Assembly (NCBI RefSeq): GCF_004343305.1 | Contig: NZ_SMAF01000020.1 | Location: 1 to 55,971 of the forward strand | Length of the DNA: 55,971 nucleotides | Reading direction: 5' to 3' | Source: Pseudofulvimonas gallinarii | GTDB lineage: Bacteria; Pseudomonadota; Gammaproteobacteria; Xanthomonadales; UBA2363 | Shown: in pieces, positions 22,436 through 30,152 of the stretch | How positions within the stretch are numbered: position 1 is the first letter of the stretch | How the letters are laid out: the number at the start of each line of letters is the position of its first letter | Position numbers and translations under genes: made by a program | Notes under the pieces: generated by a model | What the model was told of the DNA's origin: nothing | Databases searched by the model: none | Seen by the model: the letters and a program-made list of their open reading frames with translations, nothing else

Positions 22436-22777
22436 TCAGCGTCCGGGGCGCGCCTTCGCCGCAGCGGTGATTCCGCGCAGTTTGCGCTTCCAGTGCCGCT
22501 TCTGCCGCGTCAATGCCAGCAGCAGCCAGCGACCGACCGGAAGTTTCGCTGCATGCCGGCCGACGACGAACAGGCCGGCGACCGGCATCGACCAGGTTTT
22601 CGCAGGCAACCGGGCCAGCAGAGCGCCGACCGTGAGGCCCGCCCCGACCACCAGCTTCGGCGGCAGCGAATGCGCCGCCGCCTGCAGCGCAGCCGCCGAT
22701 TCCCGCGCCTGTGCCAGGTGGTGATGGACGGCGCGTTCGCGCGCTTCCAGCTGGGCGAGTCGACCCTTGAGTTTCAT
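22436..22777 (-). CDS. YqjK-like small protein of the yqjDE operon
   Basis: This 113-residue protein starts MKLKGRLAQLEARERAVHHHL, an amphipathic helical N-terminus, followed by a weakly hydrophobic middle (about 48-85) and a very basic tail (TRQKRHWKRKLRG). Its ATG overlaps the yqjE-like stop (ATGA), and it holds the position of yqjK in the E. coli yqjDEK operon. Similarity is by position and composition, not clear sequence match. Function unknown. Confidence 0.65.
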   Translation of the reverse strand: MKLKGRLAQLEARERAVHHHLAQARESAAALQAAAHSLPPKLVVGAGLTVGALLARLPAKTWSMPVAGLFVVGRHAAKLPVGRWLLLALTRQKRHWKRKLRGITAAAKARPGR

Positions 22778-23238
22778 GCCTTGTCCTTCGCGAACATCGC
22801 CATGAATGCCGCACGCGTCTTCGGGAAGCCCAGTGATCGCGACCAGCGACTGATCAACAGGCCAAGGATCACCAGTACCACGACATGGGCGAGGAAGACG
22901 AGCGCAAGCGCCGCCGCTACCGGAAGCCCGGCGGCGATCAGCGCCGCGCCCAGCGCCACCGCCGCGGAGATCCATGTGAAGAACACAGCCAGCACGCCAA
23001 TGGCGGCGGCGATGCCGATGCGCACCACGTAGGCGCGGGCGACGCCCGCCTCGGCCTGGGCGAGGCGCAACCAGGCCAGCAGCGCGCGCGTACCGTGCGC
23101 CACGGTCTGCGCGGCGGCCTCGGCGACGACCTTGCCCCGCTCCAGCGCCTCGGAGGCGGGCGATGGACCGGACGAAGGCGCAGCGCCGCCCGGTGGCGGC
23201 GCCTGTGCATCCTCCGGCAGCGGATGTTCCGGCGTCAC
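22774..23238 (-). CDS. yqjE: YqjE-like membrane protein (phage holin superfamily III / DUF1469)
   Basis: This 154-residue protein has a Pro-rich N-terminus, an amphipathic helix, then two strong transmembrane helices (about 70-95 and 105-130: GIAAAIGVLAVFFTWISAAV and ALALVFLAHVVVLVILGLLI). This is the layout of the YqjE inner-membrane family. It follows the yqjD-like gene by 11 bases and is coupled to the next gene. In enterobacteria the operon is stress-induced and the proteins are membrane-linked; exact role unknown. Confidence 0.78.
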   Translation of the reverse strand: MTPEHPLPEDAQAPPPGGAAPSSGPSPASEALERGKVVAEAAAQTVAHGTRALLAWLRLAQAEAGVARAYVVRIGIAAAIGVLAVFFTWISAAVALGAALIAAGLPVAAALALVFLAHVVVLVILGLLISRWSRSLGFPKTRAAFMAMFAKDKA

Positions 23239-23249
23239 GCCGGGTGCTC

Positions 23250-23546
23250 TCAGCGACGCAGCAGTCGCGACAGCACGGCACCGGCGGCAAGCGCGATGCC
23301 AAACGCCGCCATCGGATTGCGACGGATCGCGTCACCGGCCTGGTCCCACAGGTCACGCGCGCCCCGGGCGGCGGCGGTACCGGCTTCGGACAGGTGCGCG
23401 GTCGCTTCGGAGGTGGCGTCGCGAAGGCTGGCGGCAGCCTGGCGCAGGCCGTCGGTGGCGGTCGCGGCGGCGTCCTTCAGATCGTCGACGGCTTCGTCGG
23501 CGGCGGAACGGGCGGTGTTGCGGACATTACTGGTGGTGGCGTTCAT
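23250..23546 (-). CDS. yqjD: YqjD/ElaB-family (DUF883) membrane-anchored protein
   Basis: This 98-residue protein has a long Ala-rich amphipathic helix (about 1-70) and the family's C-terminal end RRNPMAAFGIALAAGAVLSRLLRR, a single membrane anchor. ElaB/YqjD proteins bind ribosomes at the inner membrane in stationary phase. First gene of a three-gene minus-strand operon. A sigma-54-like element lies about 75 bases upstream (23621-23637). Confidence 0.85.
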   Translation of the reverse strand: MNATTSNVRNTARSAADEAVDDLKDAAATATDGLRQAAASLRDATSEATAHLSEAGTAAARGARDLWDQAGDAIRRNPMAAFGIALAAGAVLSRLLRR

Positions 23547-23681: not shown

Positions 23682-23719
23682 GCGCGGCGCGGCGTCCACT
23701 GTGGACGACCGCGCCGCGC
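23682..23719 (-). terminator. Long GC-rich hairpin after the entericidin gene
   Basis: GCGCGGCGCGG pairs with CCGCGCCGCGC (11 bases), and inside it CGTCCAC pairs with GTGGACG around a single base, giving an 18-pair stem with one bulge. It lies 17 bases past the entericidin stop and has no T-run, so it may be a terminator needing help, an mRNA-protecting end, or a protein site for the nearby yqjD promoter. Confidence 0.45.
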
Positions 23720-23735: not shown

Positions 23736-23897
23736 TCAATCGTGATCTTCGACCTTTTCCTGGATCTTCTCGCCGGCGCGTTCGATGTCCTGGCCTGCGC
23801 CATGCATCGTGTTGCAACCGGTGAGCTGCGGCAGCACGAACGCCAGGGCGACGGCGGCCAGGATGTAGCGCACGACAGTGTTTTCATTGCGGATCAT
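23736..23897 (-). CDS. Entericidin A/B-family small lipoprotein
   Basis: This 53-residue protein has a signal peptide with lipobox LTGC (Cys28) followed by NTMHGAGQDIERAGEKIQ, the entericidin signature. AAGGAG lies just upstream of ATG 23897. Entericidins are small stress- and stationary-phase-associated envelope lipoproteins; in E. coli the A/B pair was described as antidote and toxin. Only one copy is present here. It follows the Ala-rich lipoprotein gene by 35 bases on the same strand. Confidence 0.88.
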   Translation of the reverse strand: MIRNENTVVRYILAAVALAFVLPQLTGCNTMHGAGQDIERAGEKIQEKVEDHD

Positions 23898-23932: not shown

Positions 23933-24412
23933 TCAGCGGTTGCGGTCGGCCAGGCGCTCGGCGCGCTGCTGGGCATCGGCCAGTTCGGCCTTGGCGGCAC
24001 TTACGGCGGCGTCGCGGGCGGCATCGGCGCTGGCTTCGCAGGCGTCGTGGGCATCACCGGAGAGCACCTCGCAGCGCTCCATCGCCACCTTGTGGGTCGC
24101 ATCGGCTTCGGCGACCTTGCGATCGTGCGTGGCGTCGGCGGTTTCGCGCATGGCATCGGCCTCGGCTTCGGCGAGGTTGCCGTTGACGTCGCGGGCGTTC
24201 TCGTTCGCCCGGGCACGCGCCTCGGCAAGGTCCTCGGCGGCTTCGCGCTGCTTGCGCGCGGCGTCTTCGCGGGCGTCCTGGACTTCACGTGCCGCTTCCT
24301 GCCGCGCTTCGGCGACATCGCGGGCGTTCTTCTCCGGGCTGTCGGGGCCGCAGGCGGCCAGCGAGAAGGCGGCCGCGGTCATCAGGGTGATTCGGATCAG
24401 GGGGGTCGTCAT
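23933..24412 (-). CDS. Ala/Glu-rich coiled-coil lipoprotein
   Basis: This 159-residue protein has a signal peptide ending in a lipobox (LAAC, Cys21), then an almost unbroken charged helix of Ala, Glu, Asp and Arg (about 25-155) with two cysteines near residues 113 and 123. It is probably a periplasmic lipoprotein forming a long coiled coil. I know no defined family. It lies 41 bases after the DUF1328 gene and before the entericidin gene, so the three probably form one transcript. Confidence 0.75.
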   Translation of the reverse strand: MTTPLIRITLMTAAAFSLAACGPDSPEKNARDVAEARQEAAREVQDAREDAARKQREAAEDLAEARARANENARDVNGNLAEAEADAMRETADATHDRKVAEADATHKVAMERCEVLSGDAHDACEASADAARDAAVSAAKAELADAQQRAERLADRNR

Positions 24413-24453: not shown

Positions 24454-24618
24454 TTACCGTCGACGCAGGCCGCCGAAGACCAGCGACAGGATGAACAGGG
24501 CAAGGAAGACGAAGAACAGGATCTTCGCGATACCGGTGGCGGCACCGGCGATTCCACCGAAACCGAGGGCCGCGGCGATGAGGGCAATCACAAAAAATAC
24601 GATGGCGTAGTACAGCAT
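24454..24618 (-). CDS. DUF1328-family small membrane protein
   Basis: This 54-residue protein, [20 protein letters not shown]..., has two short hydrophobic helices separated by [14 protein letters not shown] and ends FGGLRRR, which is the DUF1328 (YtjA-like) pattern. ATG 24618 is preferred over 24624, as AAGGAG is then eight bases away. Function is unknown; relatives are linked to envelope stress. A near-consensus sigma-54 element lies upstream at 24661-24677. Confidence 0.9.
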
Positions 24619-24660
24619 GGACATTCTCCTTGTTCGCCGAGATCGGCGTGGCAGCGGTAG

Positions 24661-24677
24661 TGCATCCGTCGTGCCAA
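24661..24677 (-). promoter_or_regulatory. Strong sigma-54-like -24/-12 promoter of the DUF1328 cluster
   Basis: The minus strand reads TTGGCACGACGGATGCA against consensus TTGGCACG-N4-TTGCA, one mismatch, with GG and GC ten bases apart. The expected start site near 24651 gives a leader of about 33 bases to ATG 24618. Confidence 0.65.
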
Positions 24678-24689
24678 TCTGGAAATCGT

Positions 24690-24716
24690 GATGAATTCAA
24701 GGGATTCCGATTCATC
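24690..24716. repeat. Inverted repeat in the divergent regulatory region
   Basis: GATGAAT (24690-24696) is repeated inverted as ATTCATC (24710-24716) with 13 bases between. It lies just upstream of the minus-strand sigma-54 element and could be a second regulator site. Confidence 0.4.
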
Positions 24717-24767
24717 GACCACGAAGTCCGTGCAGCAGCCCGTGCATCGTGCATGGCGAATTGCAAG

Positions 24768-24783
24768 GCGCATTGCAATGCGC
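24768..24783. promoter_or_regulatory. Perfect 16-base palindrome, candidate enhancer site for the NtrC-type activator
   Basis: GCGCATTGCAATGCGC is a perfect palindrome, flanked by further TTGCAA and CAATGC copies. It lies about 90 bases upstream of the minus-strand -24 element and about 125 upstream of the plus-strand one, the usual distance for sigma-54 activator sites. The match to the activator encoded at 28782 is inference. Confidence 0.55.
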
Positions 24784-24905
24784 AATGCATGGGTCGCACG
24801 CGCATCCGTGAGCCGAGGCGCCCACGGCGGTTCAGCGGCTGCATTTCACGGGCGAGCGCAGGCCTGGGGCACTCTGTCTCCCGATGCGGGCCAGCACCGG
24901 GGATG

Positions 24906-24921
24906 TGGCACAGGCTATGCT
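24906..24921 (+). promoter_or_regulatory. Sigma-54-like -24/-12 promoter of the signalling operon
   Basis: TGGCACAGGCTATGCT has GG and GC separated by ten bases and differs from TGGCACR-N4-TTGCW at one position. The predicted start near 24932 gives a 28-base leader to the kinase ATG at 24960, which supports that start codon. Confidence 0.6.
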
Positions 24922-24959
24922 TCCCCTGTAACGGAACCCCGCCTGAACCGATCGATCCG

Positions 24960-26762
24960 ATGCCGCCCATCATCCACGCCCGCGACACGCTCCGCCTCGC
25001 CTTGCAGCTTGTCGCCATCGCGCTGGTCGTCGGCGTTCCCTGGCTGCAGTACATGCGCATGCTCGATGCGATGACGCAGAGCCAGGAGTCGGTTTCCCAT
25101 GCCGCCGACATGATTTCGACGATCAGCACGATCAACCGGAACCTCAGCGACATCGACTCGTCGGTCGTCTGGCTGGCGCTGTTTCCAGGACGACCCGGCC
25201 TGATCGAACAGATCGAACCGGCGCGTGAGAGCATCCGCGCCGGTATCGCCGAGCTGGCACGCCTGACCGACGACGAGCCGGCACAGGGTGCGCGTGCCGC
25301 GTCCTACGCGGCGCTGATCGATGCCAGGCAGTCTGAGCTGGACCATGCCGTGCAGCTGATCGAGCGCCGGGAAATCTCCGTTGCCCGTGAACTGCTGAGC
25401 AACCGCGAGACGACGCGCCAGCTGCGCGGCATCAGCGCCGAACTGCGCGACTTCGAACTGCAGGCGCTGGGCGAGGGCCGCAGCGAGGCGCACTCTTCGC
25501 GCAAGCACTACATCGTCATCGGCACCGCGTTCGCCACCGGCCAGCTGGTGCTGCTGGCGATGATCGTCGGCCTGTCCGAACGCCAGTACCGCCGCCGCCT
25601 GCAGCTGGAAACCCGCTCCGCCTACGAACGCGAGCAGGCCAACCTGATCCTGCGCACGATCCGCAAGCCGATCGCCATGCTCGACCAGAACCTGCGCGTC
25701 GAGATGCGCAACCCGGCCTTCCAGAAGCTGTATGCCAGCGACCAGCCGGACATCACCGGCGCGCCGATCGAAACCATTGGCAATGGCGCCTGGAGCAATG
25801 CCGCGGTGCTGCAGATCCTGCGTGACGTGATCGCGCTCGACAAGGAGCTGTGGGACTACGAACTGCAGCAGGACATTCCCGGCATCGGGCCGCGCATCAT
25901 CACCCTCAACGCGCGACGCATGCCCGGCTCCAATGGCCAGGCCGACCACGTGATCATCGGCCTCAACGACATCACCGTCGCGCGCACCGCGGAAGGACAG
26001 ATCCGCGAGCTCAACGACATCCTCAACCAGCGCGTCACCGAGGTTTCCGAAGCCAACCGCGAGCTGGAAGCCTTCAGCTACACCGTGTCGCACGACCTGC
26101 GCGCGCCGCTTCGGCACATCGTCGCCTACGCGCTCAAGCTGGAGCGCGAACTCGGCGACACGATGAGCTCAAGGTCGCGCGAACATCTCGATGTCATCGC
26201 CGAATCGGCGCGCCGCATGGACCGCCTGATCGACGCCATGCTGCAGCACTCGCGGCTCGGCCGCGGCGACCTGCACCGGGCGGCGGTGGACATGGACCGC
26301 CTCGTCGACGAGGTTCGCAGCATGATCGACGCCGACACGGAAGGCACGCCGGTGGAGTGGCAGATCGACCGCCTGCCGGTGGTGCACGGCGACGCATCGA
26401 CGTTGCGCCTGCTCTGGCAGAATCTGCTTGGCAACGCTGCCAAGTACAGCGCGCACAGCGAGCCGCCGCGCATCGAGGTGAGCTGCCGCCACGACATCGA
26501 GCGACACGAGTATGTTTTCCGCGTGGCCGACAATGGCGTCGGCTTCGAAATGGCGTACGCCGACAAGCTGTTTGGCATGTTCCAGCGCCTGCACTCGGAA
26601 AAGGAATTCCCCGGCCATGGCATCGGCCTGGCCAACGTGCGGCGCGTTGTCGCGCGACATGGCGGACGGATCTGGGCGACCTCAACGCCCGGCGAAGGCG
26701 CCGTTTTCCATTTCACATTGCCGGATCGGGTCATCGGGAGCCCGGAAGGAGAGCCCTCATGA
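24960..26762 (+). CDS. Membrane PAS-domain histidine kinase
   Basis: This 600-residue protein has transmembrane helix 1 at about 11-30, a helical extracytoplasmic domain (CHASE3-like, about 35-180), helix 2 at about 184-206, a PAS domain (about 225-345), His378 in SYTVSHDLRAPLRHI and a HATPase domain with GHGIGLANV. The H-box resembles bacteriophytochrome-type kinases, but no chromophore domain is present. The open frame extends upstream to 24630 only through regulatory sequence; ATG 24960 follows the sigma-54-like promoter. Its stop overlaps the receiver gene (ATGA). Confidence 0.88.
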   Translation: MPPIIHARDTLRLALQLVAIALVVGVPWLQYMRMLDAMTQSQESVSHAADMISTISTINRNLSDIDSSVVWLALFPGRPGLIEQIEPARESIRAGIAELARLTDDEPAQGARAASYAALIDARQSELDHAVQLIERREISVARELLSNRETTRQLRGISAELRDFELQALGEGRSEAHSSRKHYIVIGTAFATGQLVLLAMIVGLSERQYRRRLQLETRSAYEREQANLILRTIRKPIAMLDQNLRVEMRNPAFQKLYASDQPDITGAPIETIGNGAWSNAAVLQILRDVIALDKELWDYELQQDIPGIGPRIITLNARRMPGSNGQADHVIIGLNDITVARTAEGQIRELNDILNQRVTEVSEANRELEAFSYTVSHDLRAPLRHIVAYALKLERELGDTMSSRSREHLDVIAESARRMDRLIDAMLQHSRLGRGDLHRAAVDMDRLVDEVRSMIDADTEGTPVEWQIDRLPVVHGDASTLRLLWQNLLGNAAKYSAHSEPPRIEVSCRHDIERHEYVFRVADNGVGFEMAYADKLFGMFQRLHSEKEFPGHGIGLANVRRVVARHGGRIWATSTPGEGAVFHFTLPDRVIGSPEGEPS

Positions 26763-27202
26763 ACCCCTGGTTGCACACTGTCCTGCTCGCGGAGGACGCG
26801 GATCTGGATGCCGAACTGACCATGGATGCGCTGGCGGAAATCGGACTGGCCCAGCACGTCGTGCATGTCGGCGACGGTGCCGAGGCGCTGGACTGGTTGT
26901 ACCGGCGCGGTCGTTACAGCGACCGGCCCGCGGGCCTGCCCGCCGTCGCGCTGCTGGACCTGAAGATGCCCCGGCTCGACGGCCTGCAGACGCTGGAAGC
27001 GATCCGCTCCGATCCGGCGTTGCGGCACCTGCCGGTGGTGATCTTTTCTTCTTCGCGCGAACAGCGCGACATCGAACGTGGCTGGGCGCTGGGCGTGAAC
27101 GCCTACGTCGTCAAGCCGGTGGACGTTGACGAGTTCTCGGCGACGATCCAGTCGCTGGGACATTTCTGGACCGAGCTCAATGAGCGCGCCTACGATTGCT
27201 GA
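26759..27202 (+). CDS. Single-domain response regulator
   Basis: This 147-residue receiver has Asp67 (LLDLKMPRLDG), Lys119 (VVKP) and the acidic pair AEDAD (11-15). It is the Rcp1-like type commonly encoded next to phytochrome-like kinases. No output domain, so it probably works as a phosphate shuttle between the kinase upstream and the hybrid downstream. It overlaps both neighbours (4 and 23 bases). Confidence 0.9.
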   Translation: MNPWLHTVLLAEDADLDAELTMDALAEIGLAQHVVHVGDGAEALDWLYRRGRYSDRPAGLPAVALLDLKMPRLDGLQTLEAIRSDPALRHLPVVIFSSSREQRDIERGWALGVNAYVVKPVDVDEFSATIQSLGHFWTELNERAYDC

Positions 27203-28760
27203 CGACGCCACGACGGCGTCCGCGAAATCCCGCGAACGCCTGGAGCTGCGCATCCTGGTGGTCGAGGACGACCCGCTGGACGCGCGCCTTGCCCTGGATG
27301 CCCTCGAAGAGGACGGCATCCGCGGCGAGCGCCGCGTGGTCGACGACCGCGCCGGCTTTCTTGCGGCGCTGTCGGAAATGAAGCCGGACATCGTGCTCTC
27401 CGATGTCAGCCTGCCGGGCTTTTCCGGACACGAGGCGCTGCGCCTCCTGCGCGAACGCGACCGCCACCTGCCCTTCGTGTTCCTCTCCGGCACGATCGGC
27501 GAGGACACCGCGATCGAGGCGCTGCGCGCCGGTGCCACCGACTACATCCTGAAGTCGCGCAACGCGCGCCTGGCCGTGGCGGTGCGGCGCGCCATCGCCG
27601 AAGCCGAGGAGCGCCGCGCGCGTGACACCGCCGAAGCCGAGTTGGTCCGCAGCCAGCGTTTCCAGACCCTGGCGATCCTGGCCGGCAGCCTCAGCCACGA
27701 CCTGCGCAACACGCTGCAGCCGGTGCTGATGGCGACGGCGATGATCGAACACCGCGACCCTGACCCCGAGGTGTCCGAGCACTGCACGACCATCCGCGAC
27801 TGCCTGCAGCAGAGCCTCGCGCTGGTCCAGGCGATGATGGACCTGGCCAGCGGCGCCAGCTCGGATTCGCGCGCAGGCCGCGTGCGCATCGGCGCCCTGC
27901 TCGACGCGGCGATGCTGCTGGCGCGCCCGGCCCTGCGCGGCGATGTCACGCTGGACGTCGCCCATGTCGATTCGGCACTGGAAATTCCCGGTGACGCGAT
28001 GGAGCTGCAGCAATGCGTGCTCAACCTCGTGCTCAACGCGATCCAGGCGATCGATGGCGGTGGCACGGTCAGCGTCGATGCCGAACGGGTGATCCTGCCG
28101 GCCGGTTTCCTGCGCGACGGCGAACAGGGCGTCGGTGACGAGTACGTCCGCATCTGCATCCGCGACACCGGACGCGGCATGGATCCGGACACGCTGGCTC
28201 GCCTGTTCACGCCGTTCTTCACCACCCGCGACGGCGGCACCGGACTGGGGCTGGTGTCCTGCAAGCGTTTCGTCGAACGCCACCACGGCCTGATCCGCGT
28301 CGACAGCGAGCGCGGCAGCGGATCCAGATTCGACATCTACCTGCCCATGCAGGCGCCGGAACCTGCCGCCGAGGATGACCCTGCCCAGGCCGGCAGCGGC
28401 GACGCGCCCGGCCGGCTGGAACGCATCGCCGTCGTTTCCGCACACGATGCCGACGGACGCCAGCTGACCGACATCCTGGACCTGTTCGGCTACCAGCCGG
28501 TGCCGTTCCACCATCTGGGCGAGATCGACGGCGTCGCCGCCGGACTGGACCTGGTGCTGGCCGCGCACGACCAGCTCGACGACGGCAACGGCCTGGCGCG
28601 TCTGCGCAGCGCCGGCTACGACGGACCGGTCGTCGCGTTCGGCGCTCGCGATGACGCCCCGGTCGCCGGCGTCGCCGGGCACCTGGCCGCTCCGTTCACC
28701 GCGCCCGCCGTGCTGCGCGCGCTGTCCGATGCCCTGCCATCAACCGAAACCCCAACCTGA
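27180..28760 (+). CDS. Receiver-histidine kinase hybrid with degenerate C-terminal receiver
   Basis: This 526-residue soluble protein has an N-terminal receiver (Asp75 in VLSDVSLPG, Lys125), a coiled linker, His173 in GSLSHDLRNTLQPV, a HATPase domain (about 280-390; GTGLGLVSCKRF) and a C-terminal segment (about 413-520) shaped like a receiver but without its acceptor: LDLVLAAHDQLDD replaces the usual DxxLPxxDG and AAPF replaces the KP motif. No membrane helices. It probably receives phosphate from the partner kinase and can act on the NtrC-type regulator downstream. Start at ATG 27180, inside the receiver gene's end. Confidence 0.85.
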   Translation: MSAPTIADDATTASAKSRERLELRILVVEDDPLDARLALDALEEDGIRGERRVVDDRAGFLAALSEMKPDIVLSDVSLPGFSGHEALRLLRERDRHLPFVFLSGTIGEDTAIEALRAGATDYILKSRNARLAVAVRRAIAEAEERRARDTAEAELVRSQRFQTLAILAGSLSHDLRNTLQPVLMATAMIEHRDPDPEVSEHCTTIRDCLQQSLALVQAMMDLASGASSDSRAGRVRIGALLDAAMLLARPALRGDVTLDVAHVDSALEIPGDAMELQQCVLNLVLNAIQAIDGGGTVSVDAERVILPAGFLRDGEQGVGDEYVRICIRDTGRGMDPDTLARLFTPFFTTRDGGTGLGLVSCKRFVERHHGLIRVDSERGSGSRFDIYLPMQAPEPAAEDDPAQAGSGDAPGRLERIAVVSAHDADGRQLTDILDLFGYQPVPFHHLGEIDGVAAGLDLVLAAHDQLDDGNGLARLRSAGYDGPVVAFGARDDAPVAGVAGHLAAPFTAPAVLRALSDALPSTETPT

Positions 28761-28781: not shown

Positions 28782-30152
28782 ATGACGACGCCACCCAGCC
28801 ATCGCCTGCGTATCCTGGTCGTCGACGATGACCGGCACATCCTGCGCTCCTTCCGGCTCTGCCTGGAGGATGCCGGCCATCTCGTGTCCACGGCCTCCGA
28901 CATCGCCGGTGCCGAACGTCGGCTCGCCGAAGCGGTCTTCGACCTGTGCTTCCTCGACCTGCGCCTGGGCGAGGAATCCACGCTCGAATGGTTGCCGCGC
29001 GCCAAGCAGCTCGCGCCCTGGCTGCGCGTGGTCATGGTCACCGGTGAATCTTCGGTGCCGCTGGCCGTGCAGGCGATCCAGCTCGGCGCCGCCGACTTCC
29101 TGGTCAAGCCCTGCCCGGCGGAAGTGCTGCTGGGCACGGCCGCGCGCCATGCCGAGGCCAGCGTGCTGCGCCGCCGCCTCGATGCCCTCGAGGCCGGCAA
29201 GAAGGATGAAGAGGATCCCAGCGGCCTGGCCAGCGCCTCGCCGGCGATGCGCCGCGTGCTCGAGCTGGCGCACCAGGTCGCCGACACCGATGCCTCCGTG
29301 CTGATCCTCGGCGAAAGCGGCACCGGCAAGGGCGTGATGGCCAAAGCCATCCATGACTGGAGCCATCGCGCCAGCCAGTCCTTCGTCACGATCAACTGCC
29401 CGGGCCTGTCCAGCGAACTGATCGCCAGCGAGCTGTTCGGCCATGTCCGCGGCGCTTTCACCGGCGCCACGGAAAGCAAGCTCGGTCGCGTCGACCAGGC
29501 CGATGGCGGCACCCTGTTCATGGACGAAATCGGCGACTTCCCGATGGCGATGCAGCCGAAGCTGCTGCGCTTCATCCAGGACCGCGAATACGAGCGCGTC
29601 GGCGATCCGGTGACGCGCAAGGCCGACGTGCGCATCGTCGCCGCCACCAACCGCGACCTGCCGGCGATGGTGGCCGAGGGCAATTTCCGCGAAGACCTGC
29701 TCTACCGCCTCAACGTCATCACCCTGGAACTGCCGCCGCTGCGCGAGCATGCCGAGGACATCATCGACCTCGCGCAGCGCTTCCTGCAGCGCTACGCCGA
29801 CGCCTACCGGCGGCCGGCCCGCGGCTTCTCGCCGGCGGCGCAGGAGCGCCTGCTGCACTACGAATGGCCGGGCAACATCCGCGAGCTGAAGAACGTGGTC
29901 GAACGCGCGGCGATCCTGGCGCGCGGAGAGCAGGTCGGCCCCGACGACCTCGGCCTGGGCGTCGTCGTCGCCAGCAATGGCGATGGACGCGGGCATGGCC
30001 TGCGCGCCGGCGATCCGGTCACCTGCGACGACCTGGAACGCGCGCACATCGAAGCGGTGCTGGCGCAGTCGGACTCGCTGGACGCCGCCGCGCGCACGCT
30101 CGGCATCGACAGCTCGACGCTGTACCGCAAGCGCAAGCGCTACGGCCTCTGA
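28782..30152 (+). CDS. NtrC-family sigma-54-dependent response regulator
   Basis: This 456-residue protein has a receiver (Asp59 in CFLDLRLG, Lys109), an AAA+ domain with Walker A GESGTGKG (178-185), the sigma-54 contact loop GAFTGA (225-230), Walker [10 protein letters not shown] and a Fis-type helix-turn-helix (about 415-456: [20 protein letters not shown]). All parts needed to activate sigma-54 promoters are present. It is last of the signalling operon, 21 bases after the hybrid kinase. Sigma-54-like promoters nearby make these genes its likely targets. Confidence 0.92.

Follow-up and report, generated by a model that had tools for sequence, protein, structure and literature searches.

The intergenic region upstream of a DUF1328 gene of Pseudofulvimonas gallinarii is read here as a sigma-54 promoter with an AlgB-type enhancer, i.e. 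as a switch which is fed by a CHASE3 kinase and directed at small envelope genes, a reading drawn from sequence comparison to which we give a probability of about 0.86. An AlgB-type activator encoded nearby probably binds a pair of TGCA-N3-TGCA-type sites and turns on the promoter on the minus strand. Promoter, sites, spacing, gene neighbourhood and the clade to which the activator belongs can be read from the compared sequences themselves. The window, by which the whole analysed stretch of 55,971 nucleotides is meant, is an entire contig (G000:C20) of a genome of 3.45 Mb; its relevant features are compiled in Table 1.

Table 1. Features of the DUF1328 operon, the intergenic region and the kinase-algB operon in the window.
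Feature	Position	Strand	Remarks
Strong hairpin after entericidin gene, no T run	23682..23719	-	66-nt fold -41.7 kcal/mol, z -3.1
Entericidin-family lipoprotein	23736..23897	-	Pfam PF08085, 2.2e-08; near algB in 7/21 loci, window included
Ala-rich lipoprotein	23933..24412	-	Lipobox LAAC; homologues near algB in 11/21 loci, window included
DUF1328 small membrane protein, operon gene 1	24454..24618	-	Pfam PF07043, 3.2e-15
Sigma-54 -24/-12 promoter of DUF1328 operon	24661..24676	-	TGGCACGACGGATGCA, 11/12 consensus positions
Proximal predicted AlgB-type site	24743..24753	-	TGCACGATGCA, exact TGCA-N3-TGCA, 66 bp from -24 box
TGCA array enclosing both sites and palindrome 24768-24783	24743..24789		TGCA at 24743, 24750, 24762, 24774, 24786
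Distal predicted AlgB-type site	24774..24784	-	TGCGCATTGCA, 7/8, 97 bp from -24 box
Candidate sigma-54 promoter of kinase-algB operon	24906..24921	+	TGGCACAGGCTATGCT, 10/12, not conserved
CHASE3-PAS-HisKA-HATPase sensor kinase	24960..26762	+	His 378; Pfam (PAS_4 below cut-off)
Single-domain response regulator	26759..27202	+	Asp 67; Pfam
REC-HisKA-HATPase hybrid kinase	27180..28760	+	REC Asp 75, His 173; Pfam
AlgB-type NtrC-family activator	28782..30152	+	REC Asp 59, AAA+ with GAFTGA, Fis-type HTH; Pfam, trees, residues

The minus-strand promoter and its putative enhancer sites

Sigma-54 promoters are described by a short consensus, TGGCAC-N5-TTGC, and a longer one, TGGCACG-N4-TTGCW, both of which were used. 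The initial annotation had placed two -24/-12 elements, a perfect palindrome and an activator gene in this region, and all of them are present in the sequence. The minus-strand element, running from 24676 to 24661, has the GG-N10-GC pattern and the single mismatch to the short consensus which had been ascribed to it. The distance of 33 bases from this promoter to the DUF1328 start had to be corrected, as the -12 box lies 42 bases from an ATG at 24618 and 36 from an ATG at 24624. The start was moved from 24624 to 24618, which is more likely the true one given its well-spaced AAGGAG and the family N-terminus MLYYAIVF. That lipoprotein and entericidin gene are driven from the same promoter, as had been proposed, is supported by gene order, and we infer one transcript for all three genes. 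The Ala-rich lipoprotein matched no NCBIfam family and no Pfam family above cut-off. The hairpin behind the entericidin gene, which terminator calling did not report, possibly marks the operon end. Beyond it, on the same strand, lie small DUF883/phasin-like and YqjE-like genes (22774-23546), where inspection by eye found no exact TGCA-N3-TGCA site.

Bare sigma-54-like matches number 32 across the genome against 42 for a reversed-pattern control, so that genome-wide promoter matching, showing no excess, was dropped as a sole test and the evidence lies in conservation and context rather than in the match itself. At random positions in the loci studied, a -24/-12 score of at least 10/12 is reached within 125 nt at 1.07%, and a score of at least 9 together with an exact upstream TGCA-N3-TGCA at 0.11%. 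On the minus strand of the window the -24/-12 element is accompanied by conserved putative activator sites upstream at looping distance, and judged by comparison with relatives this element is real and conserved.

The proximal site takes the position of the second site in relatives, and the distal site, 31 bp from it, likewise agrees with them in position and site spacing. Two more 7/8 sites lie 85 and 102 bp from the -24 box, and a further TGCA at 24731 adjoins the array. The perfect palindrome reported at 24768-24783, GCGCATTGCAATGCGC, does exist and is found in a single copy in the genome even if one mismatch is allowed; it is absent from both congener loci, where the best match is 12/16. 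Of the two predicted sites it overlaps only the weaker distal one. From these sequences the proposed enhancer is best read as a pair of TGCA-N3-TGCA-type sites spaced by 31 bp. As a genome-wide motif, three TGCA in steps of 12 bp were also tried and found at four places, two of them overlapping in the array; TGCA-N3-TGCA was preferred.

Between the exact site's end and the -24 box, targets in the order show spacings of 54, 66-67, 76, 86-87, 96-98, 109 and 121-123 bp, and in one genome (G370) three sites lie 101, 119 and 135 bp away. These spacings are periodic near 10.5-11 bp (n=14 after collapsing, R 0.80-0.86, p ~1e-4), the 14 having been chosen by hand as one per genus and target, with four differing g43 lipoprotein spacings kept and G370 left out; uncollapsed, the 22 sites gave p = 2e-4. 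A further 32 spacings, hand-copied from matches outside the first set as one per promoter (the first site listed), fitted a phase fixed beforehand (p 1e-5 to 5e-4, by assumed period), seven to nine of them being out of phase. Among 20 two-site rows, picked by hand where two sites were visible, the second site is 31 bp nearer the promoter in 15, 32 bp in two and 21 bp in three, the figure of 31 bp describing those loci only. In the sequences compared, the distance from site to promoter follows the helical repeat.

The AlgB-like activator and its probable signal input

The protein encoded at 28782-30152 had been called an NtrC-type activator with an intact GAFTGA loop. This was borne out, with GAFTGA at residue 224 and a Walker A motif present; what had escaped notice is its likeness to AlgB. 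It shows the architecture of the AlgB family, a receiver domain with the phospho-acceptor Asp at residue 59, a sigma-54 AAA+ domain with intact GAFTGA and a Fis-type HTH, and excerpts of PMC6932827 give Asp 59 and GAFTGA as features of Pseudomonas aeruginosa AlgB, too. Orthologues at E <= 1e-110 (52-73% identical) occur in 21 of 398 genomes of the order, including the window's own, and in 10 of 98 genera; the two congener orthologues are 72-73% identical, those of other genera of the order 52-62%. In a tree of 45 rows (21 orthologues, 24 paralogues) the orthologues form one clade with a support of 100/100. In a second tree of 41 rows, containing 15 of the 21 orthologues of the order, 11 of 30 loci from another family and 15 of the 24 paralogues, the orthologues of the order and the AlgB-type proteins of the other family share one branch (26 rows, 100/100); two long paralogue branches meet in this tree, which raised a warning, and its rows hold no sequence named as P. 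aeruginosa AlgB. At its end the HTH reads STLYRKRK in each of the 31 clade rows displayed, whereas none of the 22 paralogue rows long enough to cover the HTH has this sequence. Since the activator groups at 100/100 with KinB-linked proteins and apart from 15 paralogues, we conclude from sequence comparison that it is AlgB-like. Identities with PrsR and with NtrC were both rejected on model cut-offs; with TIGR02915, the PrsR model, the protein reaches 370.3 bits where the curated cut-off is 502.6.

In pseudomonads, among which Pseudomonas putida KT2440 also has algB, KinB is the usual neighbour kinase of AlgB. The window shares with the AlgB/KinB system of P. aeruginosa an activator that falls into the clade of KinB-linked AlgB-type proteins, with Asp 59 and GAFTGA alike, but instead of KinB it has a CHASE3 kinase, a single-domain regulator and a REC-kinase before algB; a KinB N-terminus was not found between 18001 and 36000 of the window. 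All three further genomes examined for it (G323, G120, G149) have, near algB, a REC-kinase and a CHASE3 kinase with a fused REC. Near the algB orthologue of G090, one genome of the order (L153:5653-6435), a distant KinB-like kinase N-terminus was observed (26% over 261 aa), possibly an intermediate between KinB and CHASE3 inputs as far as sequence tells. According to excerpts of PMC6932827, AlgB occurs in many species without KinB, and a phytochrome route to AlgB has been described there. As a partner kinase in the order a phytochrome was rejected, PHY domains being present in two of the 21 genomes and not in that of the window. With a CHASE3 cluster, no KinB and no PHY, the input of the window therefore differs from both the KinB and the phytochrome routes.

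A comparable arrangement is the PrsK/PrsR regulon of PEP-CTERM genes, where, according to Haft 2006 (PMC1569441), an NtrC-type regulator was likewise connected by comparative genomics to an activator site plus -24/-12 elements; the upstream motif reported there is TTTACA and here TGCA-N3-TGCA, and the targets differ.

Recurrence in the order, in a second family and elsewhere in the genome

In the first loci examined, a -24/-12-like element was already seen before the DUF1328 genes, with TGCA-N3-TGCA or a near match farther upstream. A DUF1328 gene lies near 14 of the 21 algB orthologues (15 with a weak match; for lipoprotein and entericidin see Table 1), and near algB of G381 and G269 no homologue of DUF1328, the Ala-rich lipoprotein or entericidin was found. 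Of 28 targets near algB, window included, 27 have an upstream -24/-12 score of at least 9, compared with 70 of 752 background ORFs (mechanically called, 100 aa or longer); promoter plus exact TGCA-N3-TGCA lie upstream of 20 of the 28, compared with two of the 752. Many of these loci are related, so that the counts are not independent. In loci that had no part in defining the motif, the combination was found for 13 of 18 targets. Five of the eight targets without it have a 7/8 site (the DUF1328 genes of G268, G323 and G015, the lipoproteins of G293 and G015), and three have no site at all (the lipoproteins of G149 and G013 and the weak DUF1328 match of G293), that of G149 also being without a -24/-12 element. 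The -12 box varies to TTGA, TTGT or TGGA in several target promoters. The entericidin gene of G323, second in its operon, belongs to a list of 29 targets and was excluded from the 28. The minus-strand element was retained in relatives; plus-strand element and palindrome were absent from the congeners.

Among named genomes, a pattern of promoter and DUF1328 start retrieved 66 stretches, 35 with DUF1328 by tblastn. Tahibacter aquaticus DSM 21667 is one of these genomes and has the locus. The exact site precedes DUF1328 in six of eight of these records with a nearby activator orthologue and in none of the 27 without; seven of the eight duplicate loci of the genome set and are not independent of them. 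One stretch (L095) was classed as other, with no DUF1328 by tblastn, although activator and site are adjacent. Five Rhodanobacter DUF1328 genes (L079, L103, L105, L106, L108) were rejected as members: they have TGGCACGGGCTATGGG in common and no TGCA-N3-TGCA site, and no activator orthologue was found in the 8 kb examined around them. A looser pattern of site plus promoter, matching in 43 of 299 genomes of the order and in none of the controls, was given up for a tighter one in the 21 genomes with an orthologue, as many downstream sequences look like chance.

A draw of 369 genomes across the class yielded one orthologue outside the order, G558 (64%). Downstream of its algB orthologue lies a kinase with a KinB sensor domain (KinB_sensor Pfam 6.7e-33; one locus tested), and on the diverging side a DUF2383 gene is preceded by the promoter, with an exact site at 97 bp and one of 7/8 at 66 bp. 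The family of G558, which we take for Pseudomonadaceae because KinB adjoins algB, has orthologues in 109 of 148 genomes. Among the best 30 of these 109 loci, a KinB N-terminus adjoins algB in 29 (the query's own included), DUF1328 is situated within 1.5 kb of algB in 25, and promoter plus exact site occur on the diverging flank in 25, against 0/30 in the 3' flanks, 0/30 in algB itself and 2/1500 in block shuffles. Exact site, promoter and ORF coincide in 22 of these 30 loci, and in 28 if 7/8 sites are counted. As in the window, algB is thus accompanied in KinB-linked loci of another family by DUF1328 and by sigma-54 promoters that carry these sites. The proposal that a sigma-54 promoter drives DUF1328 is supported by this recurrence of promoter, sites and neighbourhood in the order and the second family, and so, as likely, is the proposed role of the protein 28782-30152 as its activator.

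The description of the region as a self-contained cassette was wrong, since promoter and site recur before a BON-domain gene on a different contig of the genome and the regulon extends beyond the locus. This gene (L223:1738-2215, G000:C9:41237-41714; also L205) has TGCAGGCTGCA 55 bp before TGGCACGCCGCGTGTA and is a likely second target in the window's genome, judged by these sequence elements. Across the 21 genomes the combined pattern of site and promoter gave 51 matches against two for the reversed control, the 51 including known targets and a few promoters counted twice. Downstream genes encode, by Pfam, BON-domain proteins, DUF2383, DUF3309, DUF305, a glycine-zipper protein and further DUF1328; a second glycine-zipper protein came from a looser site-plus-promoter search of the order. 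In both congeners distant copies of the Ala-rich lipoprotein (46-47% identical) lie behind such promoters, and for several other combined-pattern matches, perhaps due to chance, there is no convincing gene downstream.

Some further loci were observed alongside. On G000:C4 the gene of a small protein without Pfam family (L224:869-1313) has TGCATCTTGCA 76 bp before TGGCACGCCGCATGCT, and near it a short-chain dehydrogenase-like ORF, identified by eye (L224:2511), has TGGCACGGATCCTGCA and no site. A transporter-like ORF in G217 and G262 (L052, L054), with TGCA-N3-TGCA and TGGCACACGTGTTGCA upstream, might at a guess be a nitrogen-type sigma-54 target. A Crp-like regulator ORF of G015 (by eye; L192:673-1443) behind TGCAGGCTGCA (75 bp) and TGGCACGCATCGTGAG is possibly a second layer of the regulon.

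In the proposed mechanism, the CHASE3 kinase would sense a signal, and the AlgB-like activator would receive it, probably by way of the single-domain regulator and the REC-kinase. The activated protein would bind at 24774-24784 (97 bp from the -24 box) and 24743-24753 (66 bp), both on the same face of the DNA, and loop to sigma-54 RNA polymerase at 24661-24676, whereupon ATP hydrolysis would open the promoter and DUF1328, the Ala-rich lipoprotein and entericidin would be made. The same activator would drive other genes of envelope-stress type elsewhere in the genome, including that of the BON-domain protein. Binding, dependence on sigma-54, order of the phosphorelay, signal and role in envelope stress are what we infer from the sequences, and the word stress is borrowed from the roles of the target families elsewhere.

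Competing explanations and biological meaning

For this region two diverging sigma-54 promoters had been suggested, with the perfect palindrome between them as single enhancer and the plus-strand operon under autoregulation. Both elements are indeed present with correct spacing, the two TGCA sites lie, by coordinates, 121 and 152 bp upstream of the plus element, and algB itself carries promoter and site in two other genomes (G074, G120). The single mismatch claimed for the plus element applies to the short consensus, but there are two against the long one. In neither congener do the 300 bp before the corresponding kinase gene contain this element; the alignment there is poor, and the best match scores 8/12 with no GG/GC pattern. 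The palindrome, too, is missing from both congener loci, and it spans only the weaker site. As the plus element is not kept in the congeners, we regard divergent pair and autoregulation at the window locus as rather unlikely. Ahead of their kinase gene the congeners have GTTCC-N-GTTTTTC-N2-GAAAACGG-Y-TATCGTTCC in common (L035:2530-2562, L036:2660-2692); where the plus element lies, the window shows a sequence, GGCTATGCTTCC, that resembles it only in part.

For the minus-strand promoter, a different bacterial enhancer-binding protein could be the activator, with sigma-54 dependence intact and the adjacency of algB incidental. NtrC-family proteins are numerous in the genome: of 27 candidates scored, 19, counting the activator itself, match it at E <= 0.001. 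An unrelated activator could have TGCA-rich sites in common; yet the restriction of the exact site to records with an adjacent activator orthologue (6/8 versus 0/27), its presence beside algB in the second family and an HTH end specific to the clade make this highly improbable. OsmY-type BON proteins are among the enteric sigma-S targets. In Salmonella, YtjA (DUF1328) and EcnB belong to the small proteins controlled by sigma-S, as excerpts of PMC5437024 have it, which speaks for the operon being driven by a factor of the sigma-70 family, e.g. an RpoS-like one, with the -24/-12 element as chance or secondary. Against this stand the -24/-12 element in 27 of 28 targets, a simple consensus scan, limited to promoters of the sigma-70 type, that found none upstream of DUF1328, and a genome with neither an RpoS match above cut-off nor a third, RpoS-sized protein, and we hold the chance of such a driver to be minute. 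AlgB-type activation of a sigma-54 promoter remains our preferred reading.

The RpoS model gave no match above its cut-off (378.7 bits) in any of the 21 genomes. A third, RpoS-sized protein scores 322-338 bits in eight of them, the window's genome not among these; there, two sub-cut-off matches have the sizes of RpoD and RpoH and, by size and score, presumably are these factors. A simple story of RpoS replaced by sigma-54 was rejected as too strong, given the RpoS-sized protein in 8/21 genomes. A takeover of the sigma-S role by sigma-54 may have occurred, though the switch is present in genomes that have an RpoS-like protein, too. The enteric genes ytjA and ecnB (excerpts of PMC5437024) represent the same families, DUF1328 and entericidin, under sigma-S, whereas here they lie behind sigma-54 enhancers.

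AlgB and its partner KinB are already known, a KinB-RpoN regulon has reportedly been described, and site and parts of the present findings may be in print. PA5482 we take to be the DUF1328 gene adjoining algB. The PA5482-PA5481 operon is discussed in PMC4981712, the main text of which does not contain the word AlgB. Our literature search, which lay outside the key AlgB and KinB-RpoN papers, found no paper linking AlgB or sigma-54 with DUF1328 and none pairing PA5482 or PA5481 with AlgB. Entericidin does occur together with RpoN in papers whose titles concern RpoS, starvation and cyst development, and together with sigma-54 in another; wording such as 'AlgB-dependent' is also in use.

AlgB has been studied as a regulator of alginate and virulence and yet has an intact sigma-54 contact loop. 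Its published target algD is AlgU-driven, so AlgB need not act via sigma-54 everywhere. The enhancer code described here, two TGCA-N3-TGCA-type sites mostly 31 bp apart and helically phased, would give AlgB evident direct sigma-54 targets and offers a mechanism of control for DUF1328, DUF2383 and entericidin-type genes, the functions of which are largely unknown. Tentatively, and at slightly less than even odds, the ancestral and widely kept task of AlgB may be a sigma-54 envelope-stress regulon (DUF1328, DUF2383, BON, glycine-zipper and Ala-rich lipoproteins, entericidin) rather than alginate, and in Xanthomonadales without RpoS the CHASE3-fed switch, in place of one fed by KinB or phytochrome, may have assumed responsibility for the envelope side of the general stress response.
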